Source: Bathymodiolus brooksi
Taxonomy: Eukaryota > Mollusca > Bivalvia > Mytilida > Modiolidae
Assembly (NCBI GenBank): GCA_963680875.1
Contig: OY804588.1
Coordinates: 80,500,829-80,564,828 of the forward strand
Direction of reading: 5' to 3'
DNA: 64,000 bases
Below, piece by piece: positions 1,333 through 63,557 of the stretch. Below the pieces are notes generated by a model. That model was not told where the DNA came from. It did no database searches and was given only the letters and a program-made list of their open reading frames with translations. Position 1 is the first letter of the stretch. Each line of letters starts with the position of its first letter. Made by a program: the position numbers and the translations under genes.

Positions 1333-3243
1333 AAGATATTCAATCATGTGACACATCTTTATCGTTGTATCGTTATCTCTGTCATCATGTTGTTGGTAGC
1401 GAGGAAACAGTGAAGACAAGGAGAATGTTTAATACAATCAGCGATAATACGTCCCAGTCTGAATCATTTACCCAGATAACAAGTGGAAGCGGCGGCGAAG
1501 GTCTTGAGATGAAGGGGAGTGACATAGATATTATGTTTGTGTTTAAAAATGTAAATGTCTATGAGGATATAAATAGTTCACGTATTAATTCGTCTGAAAC
1601 GTGTGTTGCTATGGAGACGGACGACACCAAACTCGGATTTTCACATTTGCGACTTCTTCGCTGTAATAATAACGTAATTTTAAAGATGTGTACACAAGTT
1701 AGAAATTATTTCTATTTGTCTACTCAGTTATGTAGATCAATATTCATTGGAGCAGGTTGGAAAGCTGAAGTAGTTCATGGACCATGTTTGTCAGATAAAG
1801 ATGGGTACTTTGATTTTGCATTCAACTTGCATTCAAGACGATGGATATCAATTGCTAACCAATGGGCAACAAGATCTAATTGCTCATGGCCTAGTAGTGA
1901 TGTAAAGTCACAGATAATAAATCATGGTGTTTTGTTTGTTCCTATCGGTTCTAAAGCATCTAAAAATGAAGATATTGAATGGCGTATATCATTCTCTGTC
2001 GGTGAGAATCTATTGATATACTCTTTCACTCATACACAATTACTCTGCTATGCTTTGATGAACATATTAATCAAAGACGTAGTTAGCAGGGACAGTCGAT
2101 GTAAAGATTTAATCTGTTCATTTTATATCAAAAATATAATATTTTGGGTTTCAGAAGAAATACTGTTATCAATATGGCGACCCAAAAATCTCATTTCCTG
2201 TTTCTTGGGATGCTTCAGAAGACTCATTTACTGCCCTGAATACGGAATCTGTCTTCATTACTTTATTCTCAAAATAAATATGTTTGAGAATAAAATAGAA
2301 GAACTAGAACGTCAACTCTTACTAGGACATTTAAGTGCATTGTGGAGTTACTGTTGGCGTAGTGTCCTCCTGTCAGAGCAATTATCTACGTTTACAATAC
2401 TACGGCATCAGATATATAGTAATGCCGAAGTACAAGCAGGATATATCAAACGTATATTATGTTCAAATGCTGTCAATATTGAAACATTATATGATGAAAT
2501 ATCATACAAAAAAGTCGTTCATTTTATTCGTAAGTCGCAGAGATTAAATTCTTCTTATCGATATTTCATGAGTATGATATGTAGTACGGCAGTACAATGT
2601 ATAGCTGTCGTTAGTGTGAATAGAAACAAGACCAATACAAACATTACCGACAACATCTCTGTTACCTTACATAGAACATACATCATGACGCTGTGTCTGG
2701 TTGGTTAATGTTGGCCTCGTTTTACTACAAGATGAAACAATATAATACGGCTCTTTATATTATAGCTTATGCACTATCTAAATGTACATCAGAAAAGGTA
2801 TACGTCAAAAGAACTTATCGGATTGGCAGTACGAATTAATTAAAACAAGTACGATACAGAGTTTAGGTATAACAAACATATTAAAGCTACTTCGTGTTAG
2901 CTTTGTTGGCTTCATACCACACTCTACATTGATTCCTGTAGAATTAGAATTAGAAGTTGCCAATCAACCCTTTTTACTACCACCTGTAGTATACTCACAA
3001 TTCTTACTATGTCTGTGTCATTTTCGCCTAAACAATGTAAACCAGTGCTATAATTCACTTAGAGATCTACAACTCACAATATCAGAGAATTATTTTACAT
3101 TTTGTAATATAGAAAGATCTAACTCGTACAACTGTTTAAGGGTAGCTTATCAACTTAGTGGACAACGTGCATTAGCTGAACATGCGTTTCGTCTGGCAAT
3201 ATAATTTGCCCCTACATGGAATTGTGCTTTACAGAGAATGTAA
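1333..3243 (+). pseudogene. cGLR-A: Mab-21/cGAS-like receptor with TPR-like C-terminus, frameshifted
   Basis: This is a decayed paralogue of a nucleotidyltransferase of the Mab-21/cGLR family, which makes cyclic or linear nucleotide second messengers in innate immunity. The exon starts after the AG at 1331-1332 in the same phase as copies B to E and stays open to about 2708. The GS...GEG loop and the SDID pair (Asp codons at 1521 and 1527) are present, as is the third Asp before 'FNLHSRRW', followed by the Mab-21 helical domain. Compared with copy F, one base is missing near 2626 (AACAAAGAC reads AACAAGAC), which throws the frame into a stop at 2706. A second single-base loss near 2803 moves to another frame, which ends at a premature TAA at 3202-3204, where copy C has CAA. 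The aligned original end is 3241-3243. Two frameshifts and a stop argue against a full-length product, although an enzymatic core truncated at about 455 residues could still be translated. It is closest to cGLR-C. Confidence 0.85.
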
Positions 3244-4733
3244 CAAGAGATGACTGAACCGGTTCATTATAATCATGTAAATTAATAGCTAACATCTGCT
3301 TCAAATTAATGTGTCAATACTTGTGATTCTGTGTAGAATTCTTTTTTGAAATATTAAGTCATGTCATGTTTACTGACAGATACAGATTATTTTATTAAGT
3401 AAAAATTTCATAATATCAAAGCCAAACTATGTTTTTATTGATGAACAAAAATAGCAATGTAATATTAAGTATTTATAGGACCCTAAATATGCTGCGGTCG
3501 TATTATGTTCTCGGTCTGTCCATGTCCTTGGTACCGTCGTTTTCATCGGTCTGTCGAAACAGTTGATTACATGAGATAAGCTTTTTTTCTTTATGAACGA
3601 CCGTTCTGAACGTTTAACACACGTATCATTGTCAAATGATAAAGGTTGCGATTGATTTAAGGTGTCACAGCTCTACCGTTTCCAGGCAAGAGGCCTCCGT
3701 GTGCAATATAATGTGTGTTTCTGAGTTTTTTGTACGTGTAGATTAAATTGTTTGTCTGATTTTAATGACATTTTTGCAAGGAATTCCTTGTAATACATAT
3801 ACTATATAAGACAAATAATATAAGGGGTAATTAAAAAAAAATTGTTTTACTTTGTTTGAAATCTTTAGGTATTACTGATGGACCATGCACACACTGTATA
3901 CTATTTCGAGCATAGGGTAATATGGACATAACATTTTAAATTACATTACCGTTATAGAGATAAGCCTCAAAGAAAGTGTCAATTTCCAGTTTTTAAACAT
4001 TTGTTTGACATAAAAAAAATATTGATAGACCATAACAAGTAACTTGTTTTAGTTACGATGAAAAGGGTCTAAAAGGGACATTAATAATTAAATATCATAT
4101 TTGTCGAAGGTATATATTTTTCATTGAACACATTGTGTTTTTTCCTTTCAATTGATTGTGCTGAAATCACATGGTAGTACTACAACTGATTTCTCTATTT
4201 CTTGCGATATACGAAGTAAACTTCACCGAAAGTTTAGCAGTTTAAGTAGGATTTTATTATTCCTGGTTGCTTATTTTTCTTTTCTGTTGTTTCATATACC
4301 AGAAAAAAGCAATCAATGTGTTTTCACTATCATTGTCCTTTAGGTGACGTCGTTCAGATGATTCAGATTTTTTCCCGCATTTGTGCTGCTGTTTATTCAA
4401 AGTCAAAGTGGGGTAAATCAAGCATAAACTAGAAATTGCAAATAAAAAACAACAACATCACATTAAATTCTTAATTAACAGTAGATTGCTTAATTTTGTG
4501 AAATATATAGGCAATCTTAGTGCAGGGTCGTTAAATACAAAGCTTATGTGCATGAGGCTTGTAAAATGTGACAAGGGAGAAGTTCACAGGCCTCTCTCCA
4601 ATTTTGCGCCACATACACATACACTTTATATTTTAAGACATATCATTTATATTGTGTTTATCCGTGGATTGGCCCTTGTAGTGTGTTCTGTCAGCAGGAG
4701 ATACAGTGGATTTAAAATGCAATGGGTTGATTT
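3244..4733. other. 3' flank of cGLR-A, duplicated at 30325-31718
   Basis: I see no gene here. The sequence matches the region downstream of cGLR-C almost throughout, with small indels. It carries the downstream motif 'gtcggtctgtcg'-like that follows every cGLR copy (near 3510-3560). A 63-codon open stretch at 4152-4343 is present in both versions but starts at TTG and is explained by the duplication. The match jumps near 4714-4718, where about 4.6 kb present in the other copy is absent. Confidence 0.6.
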
Positions 4734-12622: not shown

Positions 12623-13895
12623 AATGTGTCGGACACTACTACACGCAGGTACGAACAACTAACGTAAATAAGACACGAGCCCTCCTACAAACAACTGGAG
12701 GTAAAGACTAACCGAACATCGTTATAGGCACAACTTAATCATCTTGGAATTCAACACATTAACATCTTTAATAACATCTCACTTAATCGTACACAATTAT
12801 GGATGTCAAAGGCATGTTTCTTATTCTGACGTTGTACGAACTCTTATTTGAAACCACACATAGTCCAGCCTGTCCTTATGGTCACCTCTATTAAGTAGTC
12901 ACCTGTATTTAAAGGTCACATTTTTCTTGTCCTGTAATAGAAAATTTCATATGAATTGAACCTCTTTTAAGAGGTCACCTGTCTTGTAAGACCACATTTT
13001 CTCTGTCCCAAAGGTGACCTTATAATACATGTTTGAATGTATATGATCATTACAATATTCCCTGGGTTATCTCTAACTTCAATAGACACCAATTCAGACT
13101 GTGGTGTTAAGCACTTATAACTCAACCCATTCAACTTCATAAATAAATCCGAAGCCTTAAAAATAATTAAAGTCCAATTAGTTTTAGAAACTCACAGTTC
13201 TCATTTCTATCGCATGATTTAACAACAATCTTTATTTTTAATTTATTTACATTGATAGTCAACTATCTACCTGTTTGACGACTTTAAATCACTACAATAT
13301 GTAAGTGCATTGATTCCTCTGTAAATTTCCATTACAAATAATTATTTATAGTGACATGGACTCTACTTCAATGATGGCAGGTAATATTTATTCCTAAATT
13401 GATAAAGTCGAGTGATAGATTGAAATAATGCGACTCAACAAACAAGATTGTTTTAACTGTATAGCATATCTATGTATTTAATGATACAGTAATACATGTA
13501 ATTTTACGTGTTTAAATAAAAGGGGGAGGGGGTCACAAAGAAGAGGGGGTTCCTTAATTAAATGAGAATATGTTCAATAATTGAATAATATCTATATATA
13601 TATATAATTATTTTATCAGAGAAGAATTGAGGGCTGGTGTCCTTAATTAGAGGAGAGATGAATTCCTTTGTTAACGGAATTGTTGGATTTAAGCAATGGG
13701 AGGGGGTACTTACATTAAAGGAGATAAATGTTCATTGATGAACGAAAACAAGATTTGTTTGATCAAGGAAAAGACGATTAATTTATCAAAGGTGAGATGG
13801 GAATCCTTGATTATGACACAGGTGATTTAGAAATCAAACAGGAGATTGGATACCTTGATTAAAGGGAACGGTAGCAGTCTTTGCTCTGTTGTTGA
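12623..13895. other. Repeat-rich spacer without genes
   Basis: No coding signal. Around 12880-13030 there are two related stretches ('agtcacctgtatttaaaggtcac' type, reading 'aggtcacctgtcttgtaag' the second time) of a short dispersed repeat. From 13235 to 13870 the sequence resembles 8640-9310, including 'tacctgtttgacgactttaa' and several 'ttaaaggaga'-like phrases, so an old copy of the array unit extends here without a cGLR gene. Confidence 0.5.
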
Positions 13896-14830
13896 CTTTT
13901 ATATAGTTCAAGATGGCAGGTAACACTTTATTGGTTTTATCTAATATTTAGACGAGATCTTCAGATAGTTTAGGTTGGCATGTAACAATTTACTGGTTTT
14001 ATCTAGTATTTAGACTTTAAGATCGTTTAACATGGCAGGTAACACTTTAGTGGTTTTATCTAATTTGAAGACTAGAATTTCAGATAGTTCAAGATGGAAG
14101 GTAACAATTTAGTAGTTGTATCTAGTACTTAGACTGGACATTCAGATAGCTCAAGATGGCAGGTAAGAATTTACTCGTTTTATCTAGTATTTAGATTACA
14201 CTTTCAGATAGTTCTAGATGTCAGATAACACGTAGCTGGTTTTATTTAGTATTTAGACTAGACCCTCAGATAGTTAAAGATGGCATGTAACACTTTAATG
14301 GTTCTAGTATTTAGACTAGACTTTCAGATAGTTCAAGATGGCAGATAACAACTTCCTGGTTCTATTTAGTACTTAGACTAGACCCTCAGATAGTTAAAGA
14401 TGGCATGTAGCACTTTAATGGTTCTAGTAATTAGACTAGACTTTCAGATGGTTCAAGATGTCAGATACCACTTAACTTGTTTTATCTAGTATTTAGACTA
14501 GACTTTCAGATAGCTCAAGATAGCAGGTAACAATTTAGTGGTTTTATCTAGTACTTAGACTGGACATTCAGATAGCCCAAGATGGCAGGTCAGACTTTAG
14601 TGGTTTTATCTAGTATTTAGACTGGACTTTTAGATATTTCAAGATGTCAGGTAGCAGTTTACTGGTTGTTTCTAATATTTAGACCAGATTTTCAGTTCGT
14701 TCAAGATGGCAGGTAACTCTTAACTGGTTTTATCTTGTATTTAGACCAGACTTTCAGATGGTTCAAGTTGACAGGTAAAACAACCATTACTGGTTTTATT
14801 TAGTATTAAGACTATACTGAAGTCGTATCG
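13896..14830. repeat. 62-bp minisatellite, array 1
   Basis: About 15 imperfect units of 61-62 bp, each with 'caagatggcaggtaacactt', 'tggttttatctagtatttag' and 'actttcagatagttc'. A second block of the same unit lies at 16455-16895, so the array was split or two arrays arose. Confidence 0.9.
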
Positions 14831-15164
14831 AGATTTTTAACTACTGGCTGTTATAGATAGCAAATTGTTTCTTTTATATTGAATATTTCCCAGTGTCTAT
14901 ATTAGTATCCCCTCTTCTTCTGTCATTGAAAAACCTCATCGGAGGTACTATGGTTAAAATAAGACTGCTGTAACTGTAGACAGCTAGCATGAGAATAAGA
15001 CATAATACTCCATATAATTCACTAGTTGAGTGTGTAATCTCAGAAATATGTTGTTTTGATATGAAATCGATCACAGTGTATCTCTATACCTTCATGTTTC
15101 ATATTATTTGAACCAGTTGCACGTCACTCGGCCTCTACGAAAATGTGTTTAATTTTGATTTGTG

Positions 15165-15421
15165 ATTTTTGGTGTTTTAACGCCACTTTCAACAATATTT
15201 CAGCTATATCATGGCTACCAGTTTTAGTGGTGGAGGAAGCCGAGTACCCGGAGAGAACTACCGACCATGGGCAAGCAACTAGTAAGCTTTATCACTTGCG
15301 GCTGCGAGTCTAGTGCATCGTTTTTGTAATTTACAAAGCCGGGCGCGAACCAACGCGTATTGGTGATAGGCTTGTATGAGTTGTTAGATCCAGCGACCTA
15401 GCTCACTGAGCCACCCGGGCC
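15165..15421 (-). repeat. tRNA-derived SINE, nearly complete
   Basis: It begins 'ttaacgccactttcaacaat', runs through 'tttcagctatatcatggc', 'ggtggaggaagcc', 'gtacccggagagaac' and 'tatcacttgcggc'. It ends in a minus-strand tRNA-like head: A-box-like 'gggtggctcagtgagc' and B-box-like 'ggttcgcgcccgg'. It is one of the best-preserved copies. Confidence 0.85.
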
Positions 15422-16454
15422 CAGAAAGTGTGTTTATTTTCTTATGAAGAGTATATGTAATAATAATGTGTTATAATACGGACAGTCAAAGTGATGGAGT
15501 ATTAAATTCTCCCTCTTTAAATCTTCCGAATTTAATTAATTTCTAATCTAATATAAGAGACAAGACCTGAATTAGGCTTGTTTGCTCGCAGTAACTTTCG
15601 GATATTTTCTTTGCGAAACAATCTTCATTAAAAAATACAAACAAAAGCATCAATATAGATGTCATACAATTGTACCTAAATAAAATATTCCCTGTAATAT
15701 AGTAAGCAGAACGTACCAACACTTGAAGCTACTGAGAGCGTCTCGATAATAATTATACATGTATCAGCTATTTACAGCTCAGTGACAACCTGTCCATATT
15801 ATCGCCAAAAACTGTCCCGTGCATTATAAATTTCCAAATCAAACAGATCTTACAGACTTCACAAATCAGTTTTATTCTAAGAAGAAAACATTGAAACTAT
15901 AAAGAGAAATCCCATATTACCGAAATAGAAATACATTGTGTTATAACATGAAACCCTCCATATTTTACAAATTATGCAAATGTAATATATACATATTCGA
16001 ATCTACTAACACTGTGTACCTCCAACTTTAGATTTTACTTATTTCGGGATTTTTTGGACACATTTGTGGCAACTACATTTCAGTGCCAACCAAAGCAAAA
16101 TGTAGTTATAATATTTAAAAAAAAAATATATTTAAATAAACTTAACCTTCTTGACCCTATCACGTGTTTAGTCTTTAAGACGTTCTATTAAGTCAGATAC
16201 TACTTTATTGATTAACCATTTACATTAAGCGTAACAGACCACAACTATAATACAATAATTGTTTTGATAGATCGCTGCATTGATAACACACAATCTTTTA
16301 TATATTCCTTATTTAATTAAAGGTACCTTATATGTAATAATAGACAAGCAATTGTCATCTTTGAACTTTAAATCTGATAAAATTGTTTAGCGATCGTTAC
16401 AATATATAGCCTTATATGTATGGGAAATATTTATTACATATAGATCTTCATAAC
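15422..16454. other. AT-rich spacer
   Basis: I see no gene, RNA or repeat that I can name in this stretch. Confidence 0.5.
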
Positions 16455-16895
16455 GATTTAGACAGGACTTTAATATAGTTGAAGATGGCAGCTAACAATT
16501 TACTGGTTTTATCTAGTATTTAGGCCAAACTTTCAGATAGTTCAAGATGACAGGTAACACTTTAATGTTTTTACCCATTATTTATACCAGACTCTTAGAT
16601 AGTTCAAGATGGCAGGTAACTATTTACAGGTTTTATCTAGTATTCAGACCAGACGTTCAAATAGTTCAAGATGGCAGGTAACACTTTATTGGTTTTATAT
16701 ATTATTTAGACTAACCTCTCATATTGTTCAAGATGGCAGGTAACTATTTACTCGTTATATCTAGTATTTACACTAGACTTTTAAATAGTTCAAGATATCA
16801 GGTAACACTTTAATGGTTTTATCCATTATTTAGACTAGACTTTCAGAAGGTTCAAGATGACAGGTAACACTTTACTTATTTTATCTAATATTTAA
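16455..16895. repeat. 62-bp minisatellite, array 2
   Basis: About 7 units of the same consensus as 13896-14830 ('gttcaagatggcaggtaaca' followed by 'ttatctagtatttagac'). Confidence 0.9.
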
Positions 16896-22969: not shown

Positions 22970-23117
22970 TTGTAATATTGTGTGTGTTTTCTGTTTTTGT
23001 ACGTGGAGTTTTGATTGTTTGTCTGATTTTAATGGCGTTTTCGCAATGAATGCCACGTATTTTTATCGAAATAAAAAAGTCCACAACGGGAAATTTCAAA
23101 TTTATAATATCTTTTAA

Positions 23118-25990: not shown

Positions 25991-26019
25991 TTGTTTTTAA
26001 TATGATTATAGCTCTATTT

Positions 26020-48880: not shown

Positions 48881-49245
48881 CATAAGTATAACTGGGAATT
48901 CAAACCACACACAGACACACACACACACACACAGACACACGACATGTTTTATATGGCATACTAAAATATATCTAATCACGTTCTTCTTTTAATAACAAAT
49001 ATTCAGACAATGTGTAGAGAATATTCCTACATTGTCGGAGAGTATAAATGTTATATGTAATGGCCACAAAATAGGAACAAAAGACAAACAATGGCCGAAA
49101 GAACATTACACAGAACAAAAAAGATTGAGAATTCAAACTTGTTGAAGACAGGATGTCACTGCTCTACTAGTAGTACCCCTCGTCTTGTTCATGTTAACAA
49201 TACTTTATAAGTCATGAATGAGCATTAAAGGACGGATTTATGACT
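48880..49245. repeat. Low-copy repeat shared with 26150-26520
   Basis: It matches 26150-26520 in order, with an (AC)n microsatellite at 48906-48940 in its left part. Confidence 0.55.
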
Positions 49246-49818
49246 ATGACAAGCTTAGTGGGTTCGTGTTTCTCAATCTTTAGTTTTCTCTGTGATTGTG
49301 ACTATGACAAGTTTAGTGAGGTTCATGTTTCTCAATCTTTAGTTTTCTCTGGGATTGTGACTATGACAGGTTTAGTGGGGTTCGTGTTTCTCAATCTTTA
49401 GTTTTCTCTGTGATTGTGACTATGACAAGTTTAGTGGGGTTCATGTTTCTCAATCTTTAGTTTTCTCTGGGATTGTGACTATGACAGGTTTAGTGGGGTT
49501 CGTGTTTCTCAATCTTTCGTTTTCTCTGTGATTGTGACTATGACAAGTATAGTGGGTTCGTGTTTCTCAATCTTTAGTTTTCTCTGTGATTGTGACTATG
49601 ACAGGTTTAGTGGGGTTCGTGTTTCTCAATCTTTAGTTTTCTCTGTGATTGTGACTATGACAAGTATAGTGGGTTCGTGTTTCTCAATCTTTAGTTTTCT
49701 CTGTGATTGTGACTATGACAAGTATAGTGGGTTCGTGTTTCTCAATCTTTAGTTTTCTCTGTGATTGTGACTATGACAAGTTTAGTGGGGTTCATTTTTC
49801 TCAATCTTTAGTTTTCTC
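49229..49818. repeat. 59-bp minisatellite with dimeric order
   Basis: Ten units of 58-59 bp: 'tttagtggggttcgtgtttc', 'tcaatctttagttttctctg', 'tgattgtgactatgacaag'. Units 1 to 4 alternate between two forms (gttcgtg/TGTGATTG/caag and gttcatg/GGGATTG/cagg), so dimers were copied. Confidence 0.95.
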
Positions 49819-52385
49819 CGTACGTCCCTTACGCTCCCTCTTGAATTCATCACTGATTGTTTTCATCATCACAAATTAGTTGTTTTCCATCGTACTGCAT
49901 TACCTACCAGTGTTCATGTATACAATTATATATACAGTTACAGATGAAGTTTAAAATATATAGTATAGCCCTATGCTACTTTACAAATACAATATGTACA
50001 TGCTTTGATGTAATCTAAACAACAAGAAGTCTTTTTTTCCTGTGAAAAACCCATACCATATCTATATAATCTAAAACAAAAGTAGGTTTGTTTCCTGTGG
50101 AAATTCCTATTACAAATATTTATCTATAGTGATGTGTACTTGACATCATATATACAATATGTATATGTATTGATGAAATATAAACAGTAAGAAGTGGTTT
50201 TTTTTCCTGTGGAAAAATTCATTACAAATATTCATTAATAGTGACGAGGACTTGACATCCAGAATGGCAGGTAATGTCAATTCTTTACTTACGATATTTA
50301 GTTAACAATTAAGATTCTGTAAAACAACAAACACACATTTGATGTAATATAAATTAGACAATATTGACATTACGAAATAAAATTATCAATTTCTGTGTTT
50401 AAATAAACAAAAAGGGGTAAAGATGCTTGTTCACGTTTAATGAGGTTGTGCTAAAATATAATCTGGTGTCACATTTTAACTTATAGTTATGTTATCTTGT
50501 GCAGATGATTTTAATTAGAAAGCTTCAGAGATGACAAATTAGCGGGGCCATTAATACATAATAGCTGAGCAAAAGATTGTCTTGCATCACCCATTGCTGA
50601 AGGTTTTTGTTTGCTTAAGGGTGGTTAGGGGCTATGCTGTAACGTCACCTGCAACAATATATCCGCTATATCATGTCGGTCAGTTGTATATGTGGAGGGA
50701 ACCAAAGTACCCGGTGAAAATCACCGACCTCCCGCAAGTTACTTTCATCACATAATGTTGTATCGGATACACTTCGCCATTGGCGGGATTCGAAGTCACA
50801 GCGTAAGTTGTTATAGGCACTGATAGGTAGCTGTAAATCCACTATGTTGTTGTTCGTTAAAGGGACTTAAAGGAGAAGGAGATGGGTTTTCTTGATTAAA
50901 GGAGAAATTTTCTTGATTAAAGGTGAAGTCGGTTTCTTAATGAAACTAGAGGGCGGTCCTTAATTAAAGGAATAGAAGGGGACATTCAAATTGTTATAGT
51001 TTCATATTATAATCGGGTGGTATCAACTCTTTATTAAAACACTTTCCACGAATTACTGGTATGGATGAAACATTAACTACAAAGTCAAGAAATTCTGAAA
51101 AGGCCATTGAAACATTTCAGAATGTTTACCAATTAAACTGGTATATTCAGAATTTCTGAACTTTGTAGTGATTATATATGTATTATATATGTTTCAGCAT
51201 GTATATAATCAACGAGATTAAGGAAATCCCTTTTATATAAATAATATATTTCAGCATGTATATGTTATGAGTGGTTTTTCGCTTTTTTTTGTTCTTTGTA
51301 ACTGCTATTTATTTTTGTGCAGTGTATGTCGGTCACAAGCGCACAATAGCTTGTGTTTGTATGTGTTGCTTTAGCATGCAGACTTTGAATACAACTTATC
51401 TTACCTTATCCTATCAACATGATATTTAATTGTCTACAATATATAAATGGATCGATTTAATCTAAAAGAGAATAGTTTTGTTTTCTGTGGAAATTCCTAT
51501 TACAGATATTTATTGATAGTGACGTGTACTTGCCATCAACGATGGCATGTAATATATATTCCTAAACTTACAATGTCGAGTGGTAAATTAAAATAATGTT
51601 CCACAACATTACTTACCTGTATAGCACAAATATATATTAAATTATACACCATGAGACGTGATTTTACGTGTAGCGGTGCTTGAATAAAAAAGGGATTCTT
51701 AATTAGAGAAACGGTGGTTTATTAATTCCAAAATAGGGAATTATTTATTTATAAAAGATGGTTTTCCTTAATTTCGCTGGGATTTGGCTCTCGGATATCC
51801 ATTGTGTTTTCCTTTTCGTCAAATCTCGTCACAAGCCCTCATGCATATATTCTGGAAATTTAAAAATCAAATGTATTTATTTTTATTTTTGTCTGATATG
51901 AAAATGGTGTTTTCGTAGTGTTAACAACAGTATGCAAATATCTTATTGTTTTTACAATTACAATAAATTCGCCATAATATAATAGTTGTACATTTACCAA
52001 TCATTGTATGTAATAAATTAAGATGTGTAGCACATACATACTAAAACGAAGATATCAAATTTGATGCACACGGCGGGTTTCTGGAATAACCGTCATCAGG
52101 TACGCTGAAACGCCAAAATATTTGAAAGTCACTTAATTTAAAAGACGTAAACAAGATAGGCAAAATCGGCTAAGTTCACATATCATTGACAGACAACTCT
52201 TTGAACCTATATAAACCATCACAAGTTTGCACATGTTCAAATGTAGTGTATTTAAGGGATGTTATTCCAAAATTGTATTGCAGCTTTACTGACAATAACA
52301 TGTAATTATCGTTACTGATCCCTACAGAAATATTTGTTATATAATTTAAGTCATTTCTATCATACGTATAATTGGTTTATAATGT
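49819..52385. other. Spacer and 5' flank of cGLR-E
   Basis: The stretch 50240-50560 corresponds to 37960-38230. A SINE lies at 50630-50850. 'ttaaaggagaa'-type phrases lie at 50860-50990. The conserved cGLR upstream block is at 52185-52385, with TATTTAAG at 52249-52256. No gene. Confidence 0.55.
50630..50850 (-). repeat. SINE, degraded
   Basis: It contains 'gcaacaatatatccgctata', 'ggagggaaccaaagtacccg', 'aatcaccgacctcccgcaag' and 'gggattcgaagtcac' from the tRNA head. Confidence 0.7.
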
Positions 52386-53064
52386 AGACGATAATCAATC
52401 ACCTGAGACAGCTGTACCGTTGTATCGTTATATATCGCTGTATGTGTCATCATATTGTTGGTAGCGAGAAGACAATGACGACTAGGAGAAAGTTTATGAA
52501 AGACGAATATCGTGGAATTTTTGGATTAAATATTTTTACTTAATATGCCACTTAATTTAACTAAAATCAACTGCATAACATTAAAAATCCGCTAAAAAGC
52601 AGAATTTATGAGCAAATCGCAAAATATTTGACAGCAGATAATTATGTTGTGCACAACAGTAATGCAAATGATGTGCGCGTGACCCAAGACTTGAACTCTT
52701 TCGCGGAGATTGAGTAACGGGTGTGTTCGATTTGTGTTTAAATTATCTCCATTTTGGAAACCTGACTGTCAAAAGTAGACATTTATTATTATGTTGATAT
52801 GTTTTTTTGACATATTTGTAATGATAAGACTATTTATAATATATTTATCGTATTTAAGCATTGACAAACTTCTGCAAATTAAATTTGTTTAGAAATTTGC
52901 AGAATCAAAATAATAATCATACCATTGCAAGGTGACCAATGCTTTATATAATGCTTAATGTTTACATTTTCAACTCGTTCAAGGAACCATTGGCTATTAA
53001 CCGTATGGCCTACTTAGTATAACTTTGATGTTTGAAATATAAAAAAGTATAACTTTTGATCATG

Positions 53065-53095
<31 letters not shown>

Positions 53096-55343
53096 GAGCT
53101 TTTTGATTGGCAACCACCAAGCGAGACATATCCAAACACGCTCCTGTTAGAGAAAGTGATTGAATTAGTTGACGATGGATACAGTATGAGATTTAGACAT
53201 ATCCAGGTTTGTTCCACTGGGATTCCAGCTTATGAAAATAGGAATTAAGGTTAATAAGTTTTCAATACTTTATATAGTCAACAAAAGGCATGATATAACA
53301 GAACATACAAATCAACAATTGTAAAAGCTTCAAATAAATACTACACAAAAAATAGATGCAAAAACGGCGGTAAAATACCAATATCAAAAATAACATAGGT
53401 AGCACTGAGGTTCGAATGTAAAACATCAACCCAGAAAATCAGCTAACAAAACTTTTATATTTTAAAGCATTCTGGGATTAAAGCTAATCTAAATTTAAAG
53501 CCGAAAATTAACCAAATCTATTCTCCCATGCTAAGCTATCCCAAAAACAAATAGATTGGATACTACTCCTAGAGAAGCAGGATCAAAAGTTATACTAAGT
53601 AGGCCATACTGTTAATAGCCAATGTTCAACAAGTGTTCAAAACTGGTGTAATATTACTTTAATACAATGAAAGATAATATGTTCCATAGTGAAGTATTTA
53701 CCCAGATGACAAGTGGAAGCAGTGGTGAAAGTTTTCAAAATGAAAGGGAGTGATATAGATATTATGAATGTTTTAAAGCTGTTAATGTTTATAAAGGGTC
53801 TGATGTCTTTTATGGACTGTGTTTGTCAGACAAAGATGGTTACGTAGATGTAACATTCACTTTGCATTCAAGACAATGGATATCAATCGCTAACCAACGG
53901 GTAACAAGATCTAATAGTTCATGTCCTAGTAGTGATGTAAAGTCACAGATTATAGATCACGGAGTTCTGTTTGTTCCTATCGGTTCTAAAGGATCTAGGA
54001 ACGAACACATCGAATGGCGTATATCTTTCTTTGTCGGTGAACAAATATTGATGCACTCTTTCACTCTTACACAATTACTCTGTTATGCTTTGATGAAATT
54101 CTTGATCAAAGACGTAGCTAACATGGACAATCGCTGTAAAGATTTAATCTGTTCATTTTATATCAAAAATATAATATTTTTGGTATCAGAAGAAATACCG
54201 TTATCAATTTGATGCCCCGAAAATCTCATTTCCTGTTTCATGAGATGCTTCAGAAGACTCATGTATTGCCTTGAATATTTCTCTCATTACTTTATTCCTA
54301 AAATCAATATGTTTGAGAATAGAATAAAAGAACAGGAACGACAACTCTTACTGGGACATTTAAGTGCATTGTGGGATTACGGATGGCGTAGTGTCCTCTT
54401 GTCAGAACAATTTGCTACGTTTCCATTACTACGGCACCGTATATATAATAACGTCGAAGTACAAGCAGGATATATCAAACATATATTATGTTCAACAAGT
54501 GTTCATACGGCAGCAGCATTTGATAAAAGTTCATACAATAAAGCAGTTCATTTTATTCGTCAGTCTCAGAGATTAAAATCTTATTATCGTTATTTCTTGA
54601 GTATGATGTGTAGTCAGGCTATACAATGTGAACCTGTCGTTAGTGTGTATAGAAACAAAGACAAATACAAACAATACCGAAGACGTCTCTGTTACCTTAC
54701 ACAGAACGCACATCATGACGCTGTCTCTGGCTGGTTAATGTTGGCCTCGTTTTACTACCAGATGAAACAATATGATACGGTTCTTTATATTATATCTTAT
54801 GCATTATCAAAGTGTACACCAGAAAAAAATATTCTATCAAGAAATTTTTTCGGATTGGCAATACGAATTAATTAAAACAAGAACAGTACAAAGTTTAAGT
54901 GCAACACAAATACTAAAACTAGTACGTGTTAGTTCTGTTGAATTCACTCGACAATCTCCATTGATTCCTGAAGAATTAGATTTAGAAGTTGCCAATGGTA
55001 CCATTATCTACCACCTGTAGCATACTCCTATTTCTTACTATTTCTCTGTCATTTTCGCCTAATCAATGCAAACGAGTACTATAATTCACTTAGAGATCTA
55101 CAACTCACAATATCAGAGTATTATTTGATATTTAGTACAATTACCTTGGAGTAGCTTATCAACTTATTGGAAATAAAGGTAATAACAAAATTACCGAACT
55201 CCGAACAATCTTACAAAGGGAAAGTCAAAACTCATAATTATATAAACAGACAAAATCAGTTAAAACGTGAATTAGCTGAACATGTGTTTCGTCAGGCTAT
55301 ATAAATTGCCCCAACATGGAATTGTGTTTTACAGAGACTGTAA
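52386..55343 (+). pseudogene. cGLR-E: Mab-21/cGAS-like receptor pseudogene broken by insertions
   Basis: The first 110 bases (to about 52497) match the start of the other exons but contain an extra 'atatatcgc'-like duplication that breaks the frame. About 1.16 kb of foreign DNA follows. Coding homology resumes near 53659 with the GS loop and SDID pair, in which an extra base near 53735 shifts the frame. About 270 bases between the metal pair and 'CLSDKDG' are missing. The frame at 53823-54212 carries the third Asp and part of the helical domain, then meets TGA at 54210. Further frames cover 54240-54875 and 54860-55020. A patch of about 90 bases is inserted near 55172-55263. No functional protein can result. 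Confidence 0.92.
52498..53658. mobile_element. Insertion in cGLR-E with inverted ends
   Basis: 52725-53030 matches 17173-17450, and 53395-53640 matches 17590-17875 in reverse complement. The phrase 'cattggctattaac' with 'gcctacttagtataact' near 52990 is mirrored at 53586-53622, so part of the insert has inverted repeats. A (TCTG)n run lies at 53064-53096. No transposase is visible, and 52500-52720 is of unknown origin. Confidence 0.6.
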
Positions 55344-55974
55344 ATGGAGATAAAAAAAACAATCACAAGAAATGACTGAACTGGTTCATTATAGTGCTAT
55401 AAATTAATAGCTAACGTCTGTTTAAAATTAATGTCAAGACTTATGATTCTATGGGAATTTTTTAGAACAAGTAAGTCGTGTAGTGCTTACTGACAAATAC
55501 ATTATTTGAATGTAAATATTTGACAATTTCAAAGCAAAACTGTGTTTTCGTTTATGGAAAATAAAAAAATAAAAAAAATTTAATATTAATTTTTAATAAG
55601 ATAGGAAATAGACTGCGGTCGTATTATGTTGTCGGCATGTCCTTGTTGTCGGCATGTCCTTGTTGTCGGCATGTCCTTGTTGTCGTTGTCCGTGTCGTTG
55701 TCGTCGTTTTCCTTGTCATCGCTGTCGTCGTTATCGTCGGTCTTTCGAAAATATTGATTACAGGTGATCAGTTTAACGTTTACAAATATTATTGACAACG
55801 GATAAAGACTGAGAGCGATTTAAGGTGCTATGTAGAGTCCTACTCATTTCCAAATAAAAGGCCTGAGTGTGCAATATGATATTTGGTTTCTGTTTTTGAA
55901 GGTGGAGTTTTTATTGTTTTTTTTTTAATTTCAATGGCGTTTTTGCAATCGAAATAAAGGAGGCCAGGTTATGT
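55344..55974. other. 3' flank of cGLR-E
   Basis: A poly(A)-signal-like AATAAA lies at 55560-55565, at the same place as in copy F. A trinucleotide-rich stretch with three repeats of 'gttgtcggcatgtcctt' lies at 55630-55742. No gene. Confidence 0.55.
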
Positions 55975-56222
55975 TAGAGTTACGTTTTTAAAGCCACTTT
56001 CAACAATATTTCAATTATATCGTGGTCGTTAGTTTTATTGATGGATGAAACCGGAGTACCCGGAGAAAACAGTCGGCCAGTAGCAAAGCACTGACAAACT
56101 TTGTCACATAATGAGGCCACCTCGTCTGAGCTAGATTCGAACTCACAACGTTATACTGGTGTTAGACACTGATTGCACAGGTAGTGTTGTAAATCCAACT
56201 ACCATACGATCACGACAACGAA
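55975..56222 (-). repeat. tRNA-derived SINE
   Basis: It runs from 'aaagccactttcaacaatat' through 'ccggagtacccggagaaaac' and 'aaagcactgacaaactttgt' to a minus-strand head with B-box-like 'gagttcgaatct'. Confidence 0.8.
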
Positions 56223-56399
56223 GACCTATTTTTTTTTTAGATCTTCATTATTGATGGATCATACACAATCTTGCTATTTTATTTCGAATGGTGGCTAATA
56301 TGGGCCTAAAATCCTCAATTGTATTACAGTTTCCGAGATAAACTTCATGGAAAGTGCCCATTTTCAATATTTACATTTCTTAGGTCACATTGCATTTGG

Positions 56400-57200
56400 C
56401 CAACACGTGCCGCCCGTCGTCTGTCGTGCGTTCACTTTTCACATCTGAATCCTTTCCTCTCAACCCGTTGAGCCAAATGCACCGAAACTTGGTGGGAAAC
56501 ATCTATGGAAGGTCTTCTATAAACATTGTTCATGTATTCCCGATTCGCTAAAAGAAAACAAGGCCGCCACAGGCAATTCTTGATTCTGATTTGGTCGATT
56601 TCTAAAAATATTCTACTCTGACATCGCTTGGCGAAATGAACCGAAACGTGATAGGGAGCATCAATAGAAAGTTTTTTTCTAAAGATTATTCAGCTTGTCT
56701 CGATCCATGAACAAACATGGCCGCAACAGGCAATTATTGTGTCTGGTCGGTCAATATCTAAGAAATATTCTCCTCTGAAACTGCTTGGTCTAATGAAATT
56801 AATCAATGGAAGGTCCTCTATAGCGATTTCTCATTTCGTCCGGATCCGTTAGCAAACATGGCCGCCACAGGCAATTCTAGTTTTCTGATTGGTCGATTTC
56901 TAAAGAAAAGAATCTTCTTTCCTGGAACCTCTTGGTCAAATGAACCGAATCTATACAGGAAGCATCTATGGGAGGTCCTCTATGACAATTGCTCATTTAG
57001 TTACGATCAGTAAACAAACATGACCATTATAGGCAATTTTTATTTCTGGTTGGTCGATTTCTTAAAATTGGTCTCCTCTGAACCCGCTTGGCCAAATGCA
57101 CCGAACTTTGGTAGGAATCACCTATCGAAGGTTCTGTATAAAGCTTCGTCAAAGCAAAATGAAAGGTGAGCGATACATGCTCAGACCACTGAGCCTCTAG
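56400..57200. repeat. R2 cluster, about five units
   Basis: Units carry 'aacatggccgcaacag' or 'aacatggccgccacagg', 'ttggtcgatttctaaa', and 'ggaagcatctatgggaggtc'. The cluster is headed by a degraded relative of the palindrome region ('cccgtcgtctgtcgtgcg'). Confidence 0.8.
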
Positions 57201-58600
57201 TTGTATATAGTTCTATTATATTGCTAAAAGGGATCTTATAGGGGCATTAATATATTTTTCATTGAACACAATGCGCTTGTGATGAAATCAAAATTAGTAG
57301 TATAACTGATTTCCCTATCTCTTACGGTTTCCGAAGTTAGCTTCACAGAAAATTTCAAAATTTGAACATTTGTATTCTTAATCCGATTGAATGCATTTTT
57401 CGTATATGCTCACCCTGGAGAGATATTATTAATGGACCATACAGACTTGATAGAACGGAGCCAACATTTCTGGTTCTGTCGATTACCCCACGAAACCTCT
57501 TCGAAGATAAAAAGAGAAATCAAGAAAGAAAGACAAGAAAATGGCCAAAAGAAACAGAACAAAAGATGAACAACGATCTATTAAAAAAAATACAAAGCAA
57601 TACGTACCCTACTAAAAGCTGCGAGTGAAGTCAGATGCACCGGAAGCGTACGCAGTTCCTTCTCTGCTAGTGGCACCCGTCATGTTACTCTAGTTACAAA
57701 CCTGGTGATCAGTAATGAATGAAGAAAAGACCGTACTGTGATTGCGACAAACGGAACATAGCCATGTATACTCCGTAACGGATAACTAAGGAATTCCAAA
57801 CTATCAACGTAATATATGAAGAAGAGATACCAAAGGGGTAATCAGAAGCAGTAGATCGAAGAAGGGCAGACATTAGCAAAAAGACAAATAACGGTCTACA
57901 AATCATTTCATAGAAAACTAAAGATCGAGCAACACAAATCCCTCTAAAAACCGGGCATGTGATCCGGAAAGGTAAGCAGTTCCTACTCCACTCGTGACAC
58001 TCCCGTCGTGCTACTGTTAAATGACACGAAACCATATAATATGGAACTCCTGTTGGACTCCAATATACGTAAATAAATACAAATAAAAAAAAACATGAAC
58101 CACATACAAAATAAACGGGAGTTAAATTGAATTGAAATTAATTTTTACGCAAAAATCGTAGCGGACATCACATCACTGACGCCAAGACGTGATGACATCT
58201 AATTTGACTACCCCACTAAGATAAGTAACACAAACGGGGTGGCCTCTGGTTCTCCAGACGGGTAAGCAGATCCACAATTGACGTCCGTCCTGTTACTCTT
58301 GTTACAAACCTGGTGTTAAGCCATTAATGAGAAAAATATCGAATGGTAATCATGACATTCGAAATAAAGACGTATATCAAAGCCAATCGGGAAATAGACA
58401 CATGTACTCCGTAGCGGACAACCAGGTCATTCCACGTAATATATGAAGAAAGGTTTGAAGATAACAAAAAGGTAGTCAGAAGCCGTAGATCATAGATGGA
58501 CAATGACCCAAGGAAACATGAACAAATATGACAAAGAACGATTCACAAAGTATTGCATTGAATACTAACTGGGAACACGAAAATCTAGCAAGAAAATCTA
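57201..58600. other. Spacer with three R1 fragments in a row
   Basis: R1 copies on the + strand lie at about 57540-57800, 57825-58040 and 58215-58420. The open frames here fall inside them. No gene. Confidence 0.55.
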
Positions 58601-58603
58601 GCA

Positions 58604-59060
58604 TATCGGATCTGTGTCTTGCTCAACCCAAAACCTTGACCTTGATCGGATTTGTGCCTTACTCAACCGAGAACCTTGACCTAAATAGTATTTGTGACTA
58701 CTCAACCCAGAATATAGACTTATGTCGGATTTGTTCCTTACTCAGCACCGAAACCTGTAGATATAGAGGTTTTGTAAGTTGCTCCACCATTAAGAACCTT
58801 GAACTATAGCGGATTTGTGCCATGCTAAACACAGAACACACACCTATATCGGATGTGTACCTAACTCAACCCAGAACATTGATCTATGCAATATTTGTGC
58901 CTACTCAACCCAGAACCTAGACATATATCGGATGTGTGCCTTAGTCAGTACCGAAACCTGGAGATATTGAGGATTTGTGCCTTACTCAGCCGAGAACATT
59001 GACCTATATCAGAATTGTATCTTACTCAACCCCAACATTAACCTACATCAGGTTTGTATT
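58604..59060. repeat. 40-bp minisatellite
   Basis: About 11 imperfect units of 39-43 bp built on 'cggatttgtgccttactcaa', 'cccagaacctt' and 'gacctatat'. Confidence 0.9.
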
Positions 59061-59850
59061 TACGAATTGCCCATTCCAAGTTTACTTAAAACGTTAATGA
59101 GAAAATAAAAACATATATTTCGATCATTCCATACCTATTTCATTAAAAGCAAAAAAAAAAACCAACATAAACTGAATATAAAACATGAACCAGAAAAAAA
59201 TTGTTGACGTGAAAAGTTGTGATAATATTTAATATAAACTGATGTTATTTCCGTTTTATATTGTTGTAGTTTAAATCCGTCCTTAGTGACATCTTTCATC
59301 GTCAAATACTTGTCTTCATTCTTACTACATTACATAACAATGAATATAATTATATACACTTTACGTTCTATATTGTCGCCTTGTTTACTTCTTTACAAAT
59401 TCAGATTCAATCTTGATCGTAAGATATGTTTTGTGGGAAAAGTCCATTACAAATATTTATTTATAGTAACAAGGACTTGACATCCAAAATGACAGATAAT
59501 ATAAAATCTTAATCTACAATATTTAGTTATCAATTTAGATTCTGTAAAACAACAAACACAGAATATGGGTAATATAGTACGCAAATGTAGATCTTACAAA
59601 ATATAATTGTGAATTTCCGTGTATAATTAAGAAGGGGGGGGGGGGTCGTTCACTTTGATGTGGTAGTGTTGTAATATAATCTTGCTTCACATTTTAACCC
59701 ATAGCTATGTTATCTTGCACATATCATTTTATTTAGAAATGTTCAGAGATGACAAATTAGCAAGGCCATTAACAAAGAATATCTGAGCAAGATAGTGTTT
59801 AACAGCACCCGTGGCTGAACGTTTTTCTTTGTTAAGAGGGGAGCAGGTAG
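59061..59850. other. Spacer homologous to other array units
   Basis: It follows the order of 37780-38290 ('gtaacaaggacttgacatcc', 'aacaacaaacacagaatatg'), with a G run at 59633-59645. No gene. Confidence 0.5.
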
Positions 59851-60090
59851 GAGTTATGCTGCCTAACGCCCATTTCAACAATATTTCAGCTATATCGTGG
59901 CGGTCAGTTTTATTAGGGGAGGAAACCTGATGAAACTACCAACCTGGCGCAAGTCACTAACAAATGTTTATCCCAAAATGTTGTATTGAGTACACCTCGC
60001 CATCAGTTGATTCAAATTAACAACGTTAGCGATGTCAGGAATTGAATACATAGGTAGTTGTAAATCTCCCATGTTGTTGTTCGTAAAAGT
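59851..60090 (-). repeat. SINE
   Basis: It contains 'aacgcccatttcaacaatat', 'tttcagctatatcgtggcgg' and 'ggcgcaagtcactaacaaat', with a degraded head. Confidence 0.75.
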
Positions 60091-60289
60091 GACTTAAAGG
60101 AGAAGGAGGTGAGTTTCCTGGATTAAAGGAGAGGCTTTCTAGATTAAAGGTGAAGTCGGTTTCTTAATCAAAGGAATGGCTTTAGTTTCACATTATAATC
60201 AGGTTTGGTCTACACTTTCTCCAACAGCTTTCGAAGACTTACTGGTAAGCATGAAACATACACTACAAAGTCACGAAATTTCTGAACTG

Positions 60290-60880
60290 TGTCCTAAAAA
60301 GTCTCATCAAAATCTGAATAATATTAATATTGTTTGAAAAGTCTGAACAGAGTCCAGACATTCTTAACATTGTCTGCAAAGTCTGTATATTCTATACATT
60401 GTCTGAAAAGTCTGAACATTATTTGCATTGTCTGAAAAGTCTGACATTCTTAACATTGTCTGAAAAGTCTGAACATTCCTAAAATTGTCTGAAAAGTCTG
60501 AACATTCCAAACATTGTTTGAAAAGTGTGAACATTCTTAACATTGTCTGAAAAGTCTGAACATTCTAAGTATTGTCTGAAAAGTCTGAAAATTCTTAACC
60601 ATGTCTGAAAAGTCTGAACATTCTTTACATTGTCTGAAAAGTTTGAACATTTTTAACATTGTCTGAAGATTCCGAGTATTCTTAGCGTTGTCTGGAAAGT
60701 CTGAACATATTTAACATTGTCTGAAAAGTCTGAACATTCCTAGCATTGTCTGAAAAATCTGAGCATACTTTACATTGTCTGAAAAGTCTGAAAATTCTTT
60801 ACATTGTCTAAAAAGTCTGATCATTCTTAACATTGTCTGAAACATCTGAACTTCTTAGCATTGTCTGAAATTGTTAATAG
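60290..60880. repeat. 29-bp minisatellite array 3
   Basis: About 20 units of the same family as arrays 1 and 2 but with their own consensus (TTAACATTG in place of TTAGCATTG), so it homogenised independently. Confidence 0.93.
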
Positions 60881-61603
60881 TTCAATGCTCAAGTCACGTG
60901 ACTTCACTAAGTAAAAATGTCTAAATACAATGCTATTGATTTCAGCTGTTATATAAATCCTAAATTTTGGACTAGCTGCTCTCCTATTTGCTGCATTATA
61001 TAGTTTTGTGCATTAAATTCTAGAGTTTTCATTATGTGACATTTTTTATTGTTCACATAAACAATATACAGAAATACCTAGAACATATCAAATTTCAAGG
61101 TCAAAATTAAAAACTTGTAAGCACTTGACCTATCTTTGATAACCTATTTGCACTGATATTATACTATTATCCCCAAACAAAATATTCTAATGAACAAAAT
61201 AGCATATCATATTTATTATATATACATAACAGTAGCACATAAATAATAAAAACGTAGATATCAAATTTAGTTGGAATGACGTCTTTCTGGAATAACTAGT
61301 AACATTTAATCAGGTACGATAAAAACCAAATATTGGAAATCCAAATAGTTTAAAAGTATTGGGAGCAAGAAAACAAAAGGGCATAAACGAGATGGACAAA
61401 ATCAGCTAAGTTGGCCTATCATTGCCAGGCAACTGTTTTAATCTATAACCACCACAAGTGTGCATATGCTTAAAGGTAATATGATTTATCACAATTGTAA
61501 ATATATTGACCAATAATAACAACAAAATATCTGATCATTACAGAAACATTTGCTATATGATTTATGTCCTTGCTAACATACTTATGAATGCTTTATATTG
61601 TAG
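60881..61603. other. 5' flank of cGLR-F
   Basis: The last 200 bases match the conserved upstream block ('caggcaactgttttaatcta', 'accaccacaagtgtgcatat'), with no clear TATA element. The acceptor AG is at 61602-61603. In-frame ATGs at 61557 and 61584 run straight into the big exon if the acceptor is not used. Confidence 0.5.
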
Positions 61604-63557
61604 ACGATATCAATCACGTGAGACATCTTTATCGTTATATCGTTATGTGTGTCATCACGTTGTTGGTACCGGGGAAACAGTGAAGACAAGGAGATTGCTA
61701 AATACAATCAACGATAATCTGTTCCATTCTAAAGAAATTACCCAGATATTAAGTGGAAGCAGTGGTGAAGGTCTAGATATGAAGGGAAGCGACGTTGATG
61801 TTATGTTGGTTTTTAAAGATGTAAATGTCTATGAGGACATAAATAGTGCACTTGTTAATTCGGCTGAAACGTGTGTTGCTATGGAGATGGATGACACCAA
61901 TCTCGGGTTTTCTCGTCTGCGGCTCCTTCGTTGTAATAATGTCGTTATTTTAAAAATGTGCAAAAAGGTTGGAAAATCTTTGTATTTGTCTAGTCAGTTA
62001 TGTAAATCAATGTTTATTGGAATATATAGTCCAGTTAATGTTGTTCACGGACCGTGTTTGTCAGATCAGGATGGCATCGTAGACATTGCATTCACCTTGC
62101 ATTCAAGACAATGGATATCAATCGCTAACCAATGGGTAACAAGATCAAATTGTTCATGGCCTAGTGGTGATGTAAAGTCACAGATAATAGAACACGGTGT
62201 TCTGTTTGGTCCTATCGGTTCTAAAGGATCACAGAATGAAGATATTGAATGGCGTATATCATTCTCTGTCGGTGATAAACTTTTGATATACTCTTTCACT
62301 CATACACAATTACTCTGCTATGCTTTAATGAAAATATTGATCAAGGACGTAGTTAACAGGGACAGTCGCTGCAAAGACTTAATCTGTTCATTTTATATCA
62401 AAAATATAATATTTTGGGTATCAGAAGAAATATCGTTATCAATATGGCGACCCGAAAATCTCATTTCCTGCTTCTTTGGATGTTTCAGAAGACTCATGTA
62501 TTGCCTTGAATATGGAATGTGTCTTCATTACTTTATTCCTAAAATTAATATGTTTGAGAACAAAATAGAAGGACATGAACGACAACTCTTACTGGGACAT
62601 TTAAGAGCATTGTGGAGTTATGGATGGCGTAGTGTCCTCTTGTCAGAACAATTATCTACATTTCCAATACTACAGCACCATATATATAATAACGTTGAAG
62701 TACAAGCAGAATATATCAAACGTATATTATGTTCAACAGCTGTTAATATGACAGCAATATTTGATATAAAATCATACAAAAAAGCAGTTCACTTCATTCG
62801 TCAATCTCGGAGATTAAAATCGTATTATCGTTATTTCATGAGTATAGTAGGTAGTAAGGCAGTACAAAGTGAACATGTCGTTAGTGTGAATAAAAACAAA
62901 GACAAATACAAACAATACCGAAGACGTCTCTGTTACCTTACACAGAACATACATCATGACGCTGTGTCTGGTTGGTTAATGTTGGCCTCGTTTTACTACC
63001 AGACGAAACAATATGATACGGCTCTTTATATTATATATTATGCATTATCAAAGTGTACACCTGAAAAAGTCTACGATCAAGATAACTTAACGGATTGGCA
63101 ATACGAATTATTCAAAACAAGAACGGTACAAAGTTTAGAAATAACACGTATATTAAAACTATTACGTGTTAGGTATGTTCTCTTCACAACACAATCAACA
63201 TTGATTCCTGAAGAATTAAAATTAGAAGTTGTCAATGATAGCCATAATCTACCACCTGTAGTATACTCACATTTCTTACTATTTTTATGTCATTTTCACA
63301 TAAACAATGTAAATCAGTGCTATAATTCACTTAGAGATCTACAACTCACAATATCGAGGAATTATTTTATATTGGACAACATGGAAAGATCTAACTCATA
63401 CAATTGTTTAGGAATAGCTTATCAATTTATTGGAAAGCGTGAATTAGCTAAACGTGCGTTTCGTCAGGCTGTAGAACTTGCCCCTACATGGAATCGTGCT
63501 TCACAGAGACTGCAAATGATTGAACTGGTTCATTACAATCATATGAATCAACAGTAA
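61604..63557 (+). CDS. cGLR-F: Mab-21/cGAS-like receptor with TPR-like C-terminus
   Basis: The frame is open for about 650 codons to TAA at 63555-63557. It carries the GSSGEG loop, the SDVD metal pair (Asp codons 61791 and 61797), and the third Asp (62082) before 'IAFTLHSRQW'. The complete Mab-21 helical domain follows, including CSFYI. The TPR-like tail ends beyond the other copies with a short His/Asn-containing extension. It sits downstream of the 29-bp array 3 and the conserved upstream block. The first codons differ: between the acceptor and CACGTGAG one base present in all five other copies is missing (ATATCAATC against ATATCCATTC or ATATTCAATC). Normal splicing in the family phase would therefore shift the frame. 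Either an unspliced start at 61557 or 61584 is used, or the upstream exon has a compensating change, or the copy is newly inactivated. Confidence 0.82.

Follow-up and report, generated by a model that had tools for sequence, protein, structure and literature searches.

cGAS-like receptors (cGLRs) of animals are defined by a cGAS fold, a G-S motif and an [E/D]h[E/D] motif with a third acidic residue (Li et al. 2023, PMC9980059). The passages of that paper drawn on here also describe bivalve radiations of more than 200 genes, clusters of cGLR genes and cGLRs that bear TPRs, and state that, where the ligands of cGLRs are known, these are double-stranded nucleic acids. Also within the invertebrate Mab21 family in antiviral immunity there are three shrimp genes, the products of which are presented, in the relevant part of the source, as kinase activators without cGAMP synthesis (PMC12928593). 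The present analysis concerns a stretch of 64,000 nucleotides from the bathymodioline mussel Bathymodiolus brooksi (hereafter, the window; C17:80,500,829-80,564,828 within an assembly of 2.0 Gb), which contains six copies, A to F, of one Mab-21/TPR gene, all on the + strand. These copies probably belong to a tandem array, young and in active turnover, of cGLR genes with a TPR half, the living members of which would encode sensors. We know of no settled explanation for the presence of hundreds of cGLRs in some bivalves.

The first-pass annotation of the window had assigned the copies to the Mab-21/cGLR family, and this is borne out by profile scores: Mab-21_C gave 44.8-61.8 bits in A, B, D and F against a cut-off of 24.1, and TPR (Pfam TPR_2) also scored over its curated cut-off. 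The Pfam nucleotidyltransferase (NTase; Mab-21) model, with a cut-off of 24.1, was reached only by A (24.1), the scores being 23.9 in D, 20.2 in B and 17.8 in F. The predicted fold of the D protein comprises an NTase and HhH portion (residues 1-345), of which the NTase half is structurally homologous to cGAS, and a TPR-like half (residues 346-640), for which Foldseek gave no match at E <= 0.001. The catalytic acids of D are D63, D65 and D158, and all three are invariant in 62/62 relatives. The residue between D63 and D65 is I, L, V or M in 20/20 open or nearly open copies, all of which also have the G-S motif; in the activation loop of D (G51-S52), G51 is invariant and S52 is found in at least 90% of the 62 rows. 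Among single sequences, D is matched best by MB21D2, and the best profile match (E 5.8e-19) is cGLR1 of the coral Stylophora pistillata (PDB 8gjy), the third catalytic acid of which, a D, aligns with D158; unlike the window genes, this is a chain of 376 residues without a TPR half. Before the third acid, 92 residues intervene in D and 91 in human cGAS. Thus, the range of 50-90 printed for animal cGLRs (PMC9980059), with which the window genes share the predicted fold and the G-S and [E/D]h[E/D] motifs, seems to be approximate. Vertebrate cGAS has 18% identity to the window genes, in which the TPR half is an addition. The place of the cGAS insertion, which we take to be the zinc thumb, is a gap in the profile alignment, and the copies are therefore not filed as cGAS proper.

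The coordinates in the first-pass annotation agree with ours, its span running from the first base of the exon of A (1333) to the stop of F (63557), and a 300-base stretch (repeat family D8) is common to all six copies, with 85-89% identity to that of A, a likeness that goes beyond chance. As had been described, B and D are open, F is nearly open, and A, C and E are broken in the main exon. The description as a six-copy cluster over 62 kb holds inside the window but not for the array as a whole, which has 13 copies spanning about 147 kb (C17:80.449-80.596 Mb) and extends beyond both window ends. Similarly, the statement that half of the copies are dead is correct for the window (three of six, plus F with one lesion) and roughly so for the + array, in which the exon is open in six of 13 copies, F carries a single lesion, c26 has lost its 3′ end, and b16, d37, A, C and E are multiply broken. 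An inverted array of the same gene lies at C17:81.47-81.70 Mb, about 0.9 Mb from the + array, and three of its seven fetched pieces have an open exon (L023, L024 and L025). Sister clusters with roughly 52-59% identity are found at other places on C17, as well as on C18 and C19. Mab-21_C matched at all 150 genome places scored, which were drawn from 266 candidates, so that 150 is a lower bound.

Comparison of the array with itself indicates that a block comprising six or seven genes was duplicated in tandem. Array positions 2-54 kb match 74-126 kb in order, with an offset of about 72 kb and save for short unmatched stretches, and positions 55-65 kb match 147-157 kb. The duplicate pairs are a/B, b16/C, c26/D, d37/E, e49/F and A/h153, while g137 has no partner; block 1, homologous to block 2, ends with copy A near window position 5000. 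Copies a and B have 97.1% identity over 5.9 kb, and A and h153 (C17:80594227) match at 94.9% over 4.4 kb. Flank windows of the pairs differ by 0.9-4.3% in 20 of 24 cases, the outliers being c26/D upstream (10.9%), d37/E downstream (7.9%) and two windows at 37% and 44%, in which the sequences do not correspond.

The lesions, called against the open neighbour e49 as reference, give an order of deaths. C has deletions of 8 and 30 bases as well as three other frameshifts and stops, and has in common with b16 deletions at exon bases 887 and 1174, an insertion at 1449 and the stop TGA282. E, which has many frameshifts and stops, has in common with d37 an insertion of 10 bases, a further insert of about 1 kb, two deletions and five stops. 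Thus, C and E were dead before the block was duplicated. In A, the frame is shifted by one base at exon positions 1295 and again at 1472, and there are stops; the frameshifts are absent from h153, so A died after the duplication. The deletion of F is absent from e49 and the 3′ loss of c26 is absent from D, so that these two also came later. Of the four pairs with a presumably living ancestor, only a/B retains two open copies. The shared and private lesions, together with the block duplication, support the earlier interpretation as a birth-and-death immune receptor array. B ends 14 codons earlier than e49 (650 codons), as do a, h153, L024 and L025. In the frame that stays open past its deletion, F has in-frame ATGs at -20 and -47; unspliced translation from these would be open, and hence the deletion matters only if F is spliced like the others.

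The copies also carry conversion-like shared tracts. In exon windows 500-700 and 800-1000, D differs from B by 1-5% and 2%, respectively, whereas in window 800-1000 c26 differs from its partner D by 9-16%. The longest identical runs were beyond chance (p < 0.05, shuffling) in six of 11 pairs tested, including D-a and e49-L025, and not in the other five. An origin of A as a crossover hybrid was ruled out by the match of A to h153 over 4.4 kb; the resemblance that A and h153 show to C and b16 in the 3′ half is found in the two blocks alike and therefore predates the duplication.

Codon comparisons indicate that the living copies are under site-specific diversifying selection, which is strongest in the TPR half. 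Codon models were fitted with our own script, with FastTree branch lengths fixed, to two subfamilies: alpha (nine copies, without F and c26) and beta (10 of the 13 fetched loci L027-L039, leaving out L029, L038 and L039, in which no open exon was placed). M8 beat M7 in both, with twice the log-likelihood difference (2dL) being 128 for alpha and 199 for beta, and the favoured class had an omega (dN/dS, the ratio of non-synonymous to synonymous rates) of 3.8 at 7% of sites in alpha and of 4.65 at 9% in beta. When each of four segments was given its own tree, the test of M8 against M8a, in which omega is fixed at 1, gave 2dL of 16.4, 0.2, 30.6 and 67.8 in alpha and 21.1, 0.0, 20.3 and 80.5 in beta, i.e., M8 was better in three of the four segments and no better in the second (central, HhH) segment in either set. 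Sites called numbered 37 in alpha and 49 in beta; 22 were common among 631 (2.9 expected), and 15 of these 22 are in the TPR half. Pooled over both subfamilies, the sites number 63, of which 35 fall in the TPR half and 43 outside helices (compared with 253 of 572). Patch 2 of D (Table 1) includes residues 156, 157 and 159, beside the third catalytic acid D158.

Comparison of the duplicate pairs gives a further line of evidence. When sites were defined from beta only (threshold 0.5) and then tested on alpha pairs, changes were concentrated at these sites in a/B (odds ratio, OR, 6.6; p = 5e-5), L023/L025 (OR 9.5; p = 4e-12), L024/L025 (OR 9.8), A/h153 (OR 3.9; p = 9e-4) and c26/D (OR 7.1, compared up to codon 525 only, as c26 lacks the 3′ end). 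The pairs dead before the duplication show no site preference (b16/C, OR 0.64; d37/E, OR 0.97). Taking a/B, e49/F and L023/L025 as living pairs and b16/C and d37/E as dead pairs, the living pairs have 38 amino-acid-changing codons and one synonymous-only codon at the sites, while the corresponding numbers in the dead pairs, counted over the whole of their codons, are 110 and 39 (p = 4e-4). The living-versus-dead concentration was found at thresholds of 0.3, 0.5 and 0.8 (p = 1e-5, 6e-6 and 6e-4). The pair a/B has 33 non-synonymous and four synonymous differences (dN/dS 2.2), other pairs of open copies have dN/dS of 0.33-0.91, e49/F has 0.32, and open alpha paralogs of different lineages have 0.37-0.51. 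When eight pairs were split into four regions, dN/dS was lowest in codons 160-335 in six of them (0.14-0.28).

Several observations weigh against this account. The changes in e49/F are not concentrated at the sites (1/9, OR 1.5; p = 0.52), and the dead pairs have dN/dS of 0.61 and 0.80 rather than 1. Outside the sites, the ratio in living pairs (97:37) is like that in dead pairs (110:39; p = 0.44), so that recent constraint elsewhere in the protein is visible only in deeper comparisons. Recombination and fixed branch lengths make the chi-square p-values too small: eight null simulations (alpha segment trees, single-tree analysis) gave 2dL of 2.7-13.5, the maximum of which is only modestly exceeded by the N-terminal values of 16.4 and 21.1, and the N-terminal selection signal is thus weak. 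Finally, the shrimp Mab21 proteins signal without cGAMP synthesis, as reported in the relevant part of PMC12928593.

If the living proteins are sensors, the hypervariable positions, mostly in the TPR half, would meet a fast-evolving partner, which could be a microbial or viral ligand, an antagonist or a symbiont factor, and sites 156 and 157 beside catalytic D158 would also be among the partner-facing positions. The conserved NTase core would then make a nucleotide messenger, to be read by a STING-like receptor. It is probably the TPR half that meets the partner, as selection is strongest there; messenger synthesis is suggested by an active site that is kept while other positions change. Exons for STING-type ligand-binding domains are present at three places in one C2 region (126588964-126831714). 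A more tentative idea, which may hold but which we would not favour, is that the TPR half serves for recognition and is diversified in the germline, with numerous cyclase-linked receptors differing for the most part at one fixed set of positions. The TPR surface would read pathogen or symbiont proteins and not only nucleic acids, with the nucleotide messenger reporting the encounter; the arrays would then be the animal counterpart of plant NLR clusters.

An alternative to catalysis is that the proteins are immune scaffolds rather than cyclases, in which the Mab21 fold and the TPR half would bind and activate a TBK1/IKK-type kinase. This would resemble shrimp Mab21-1 to -3, for which the part of the source drawn on gives no binding of dsDNA or dsRNA, no cGAMP and direct activation of IKK-epsilon (PMC12928593). 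It would also fit the best single-sequence match of D being MB21D2. Protein binding is common among TPR folds, which is a further point in its favour. The invariance of the three acids in all 62 relatives tells against a scaffold, as does the low dN/dS of codons 160-335, which is what is expected of an enzyme core, and we consider a purely scaffolding role unlikely.

The changeable sites could also be loosely constrained loops without positive selection, since they are mostly outside helices, recombination inflates codon-model tests and, outside the sites, living pairs are no more constrained than dead ones. However, M8 beats M8a in both subfamilies, the ratio of 38:1 at living sites departs from the 110:39 of dead-pair codons, and the dead pairs have no site preference, which together make loose loops quite improbable as the explanation. 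The duplication itself would be allelic if the two blocks were two haplotypes of one locus misjoined by the assembler, for which the same gene order in both blocks and the small difference in most flank windows could be cited. Against this, there is no N in 174 kb, the blocks are separated by a spacer of about 4 kb that matches nothing else in the array, g137 lies in a segment of about 20 kb that only block 2 has, and part of the downstream flank of C also follows A, which a plain allelic join leaves unexplained; we therefore hold a misjoined pair of haplotypes to be very improbable.

If the array is indeed one of living and dying sensor genes, then living and dead copies that were duplicated together constitute a natural experiment, which helps to separate selection from drift. 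The specific residues identified, with their bias to the appended TPR half, are a likely contact surface with a fast-evolving partner, and it is possible that proteins, or ligands of other kinds, are recognised by some cGLRs. In a chemosymbiotic mussel, TPR recognition could, if true, help to tell symbionts from intruders. As the host is a bathymodioline mussel, it is of interest that “cgas” is among the bacteriocyte marker genes in a single-nucleus study of a deep-sea mussel, in the relevant part of which the paralog is not stated (PMC13401447). Array anatomy, pseudogene dating and site-specific selection are given here and not in the passages of PMC9980059 drawn on, and a survey of literature titles and abstract openings, with few subscription journals, found no study on selection or pseudogene dating in bivalve cGLRs. 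What is new here is the block duplication with dated deaths, the start-exon-like element described below and the site-specific selection.

Table 1. Features in the window (positions of the 64,000-nucleotide stretch; the ends of A, C and E are those of tblastn matches)
Feature	Position	Strand	Remarks
Copy A, main exon	1333..3282	+	dead
Copy B, main exon	20323..22235	+	open, 636 codons
Copy C, main exon	28452..30363	+	dead, lesions in common with b16
Copy D, main exon	41445..43369	+	open, 640 codons
Copy E	52388..55376	+	dead, interrupted by insertion of about 1 kb; lesions in common with d37
Copy F, main exon	61604..63557	+	open except for 1-base deletion near exon base 5; partner e49 without deletion
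Stretch of duplicated block 2 with B, C, D, E and F	14000..64000		continues to h153 outside window
Splice acceptor of D (TATATTGTAG)	41435..41444	+	same or nearly so in other copies
Putative start-exon element of B (ATGGCAG, then GTAAT)	13344..13385	+	divergent, with mismatches at 8 of 42 bases
Putative start-exon element of D	37931..37972	+	ATGGCAG at 37961-37967, donor GTAAT
Putative start-exon element of E	50234..50275	+	intact despite dead gene
Second, altered start-exon-like element of E	51512-51553	+	
Start-exon-like element of F	59459..59500	+	ATGACAG, altered donor ATAAT
Hypervariable patch 1 of D	41552..41587	+	residues 36-47, ahead of GS loop
Hypervariable patch 2 of D	41855..41923	+	sites within residues 137-159
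Hypervariable sites of D, TPR half	42557..42697	+	within residues 371-417
Hypervariable sites of D, TPR half	42995..43312	+	residues 517-522, 538-541, 583-590, 622

The main exon begins at the acceptor TATATTGTAG, followed by A, with small variants among the copies, and a similar acceptor is found in both sister genes examined (n = 2). The “TTG starts” that had been given for the open frames are thus intron sequence. There is no in-frame ATG ahead of the exon in eight of the nine open copies examined, and e49 has one at -16. A start-exon-like element, ending in GACTTGACATCCAGAATGGCAG and followed by GTAAT, lies upstream of nine of the 13 copies of the + array; in six of these (d37, B, D, E, g137 and h153) it has a GT donor and is 2-7 kb upstream. 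A short upstream exon is therefore predicted to supply Met-Ala and to splice to the shared acceptor. The predicted products of joining the element to the main exon, MADDIQLRDTSLS in D and MAEDIHSRDTSLS in B, resemble the N-termini of Mytilus Mab-21/TPR proteins (MAD.. and MAE.., e.g. MADTDTHTES and MAETDTTTVS). The donor is altered in c26, e49 and F (in which it reads AT) and in L025, no element is present in the fetched DNA of a, b16 and C, and A has only an altered one; thus, perhaps not every copy uses the element as its start exon.

A 27-base core pattern of the element, with either donor allowed, was searched over the 2.0 Gb and had 17 exact matches, all on C17 and 12 with a GT donor; the reversed pattern, as control, had no match in the genome. 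Seven matches lie in the + array (+ strand) and five in the inverted array (- strand), so that all 12 within the two arrays are on the gene strand. The remaining five are at C17 78.17-78.63 Mb (- strand), where two lie about 23 kb upstream of listed family members and three have no adjoining member among those listed. An all-against-all comparison of upstream regions alone failed to reveal the element, owing to the many repeats in the intergenic DNA. Another start-exon-like element is found at a distance of 0.8-2.2 kb upstream of each of d37, E, A, g137 and h153, mostly as ATGGCAT with the donor GTAAT or GTGAT; that of g137 is ATGGCAG followed by GTAAT, and A has no other. These could be alternative first exons or decayed duplicates. 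A 62-bp satellite is present at window positions 13894-14818 and 16456-16894, upstream of B, and several of its units carry ATGGCAGGTAAC, which differs little from the start-plus-donor string of the putative start exon and is possibly derived from it. The strings ATGGCAGGTAA of this satellite upstream of a and B had been candidates for start exons, and were dropped for the ATGGCAG element.

Mytilus Mab-21/TPR proteins (e.g. P0063 and P0075) have 42-51% identity to the window genes, in most cases over almost the entire length; they are mostly named “uncharacterized”, a few being named cGAS or cGLR by similarity. A Mab-21 relative of 824 amino acids in Mytilus edulis (P0087) has an added TIR domain (PF01582). 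Seven proteins from other assemblies (P0005, P0006, P0007, P0010, P0013, P0016 and P0018) have no counterpart of more than 87% identity among the fetched copies, while other proteins from such assemblies match the mussel genome at 99.7-100%; copy-number variation between individuals, or a sister species, is possible. Contig C78 carries two bacterial-type COX1 genes without TGA codons (1933729-1935072 and 923662-924963) and is probably a co-assembled symbiont genome, which would fit a symbiont-bearing animal. A mitochondrial-type COX1 is carried by the 17.6-kb contig C136; it has 99% identity to a protein cluster (clustered at 90% identity) that bears the name of Gigantidas vrijenhoeki, a member of Bathymodiolinae, with the second-best match at 91%, and thus points to a bathymodioline mussel without fixing the species.

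The DNA between the copies is rich in other repeats. The open frame at window 9290-9724, where the block-junction spacer begins, resembles what we take to be a piece of a Tc1/mariner transposase; a Pfam search with it gave no match. A weak zf-RVT match (E 0.02, below cut-off) at 11982-12398 is perhaps a retrotransposon remnant. Arrays of a 29-bp satellite (AAAAGTCTGAACATTCTTAGCATTGTCTG) lie at 7069-8624, in the interval from A to B, and at 38752-40631 and 60358-60870, no more than 1 kb upstream of D and F, respectively, and related arrays lie upstream of e49. Two repeat arrays of roughly 0.9 kb, at 32297-33200 and 34284-35187 (1,987 bases apart, start to start), agree exactly in their repeat statistics, match at 100% over a stretch of 282 bases, and are the result of a very recent local duplication.

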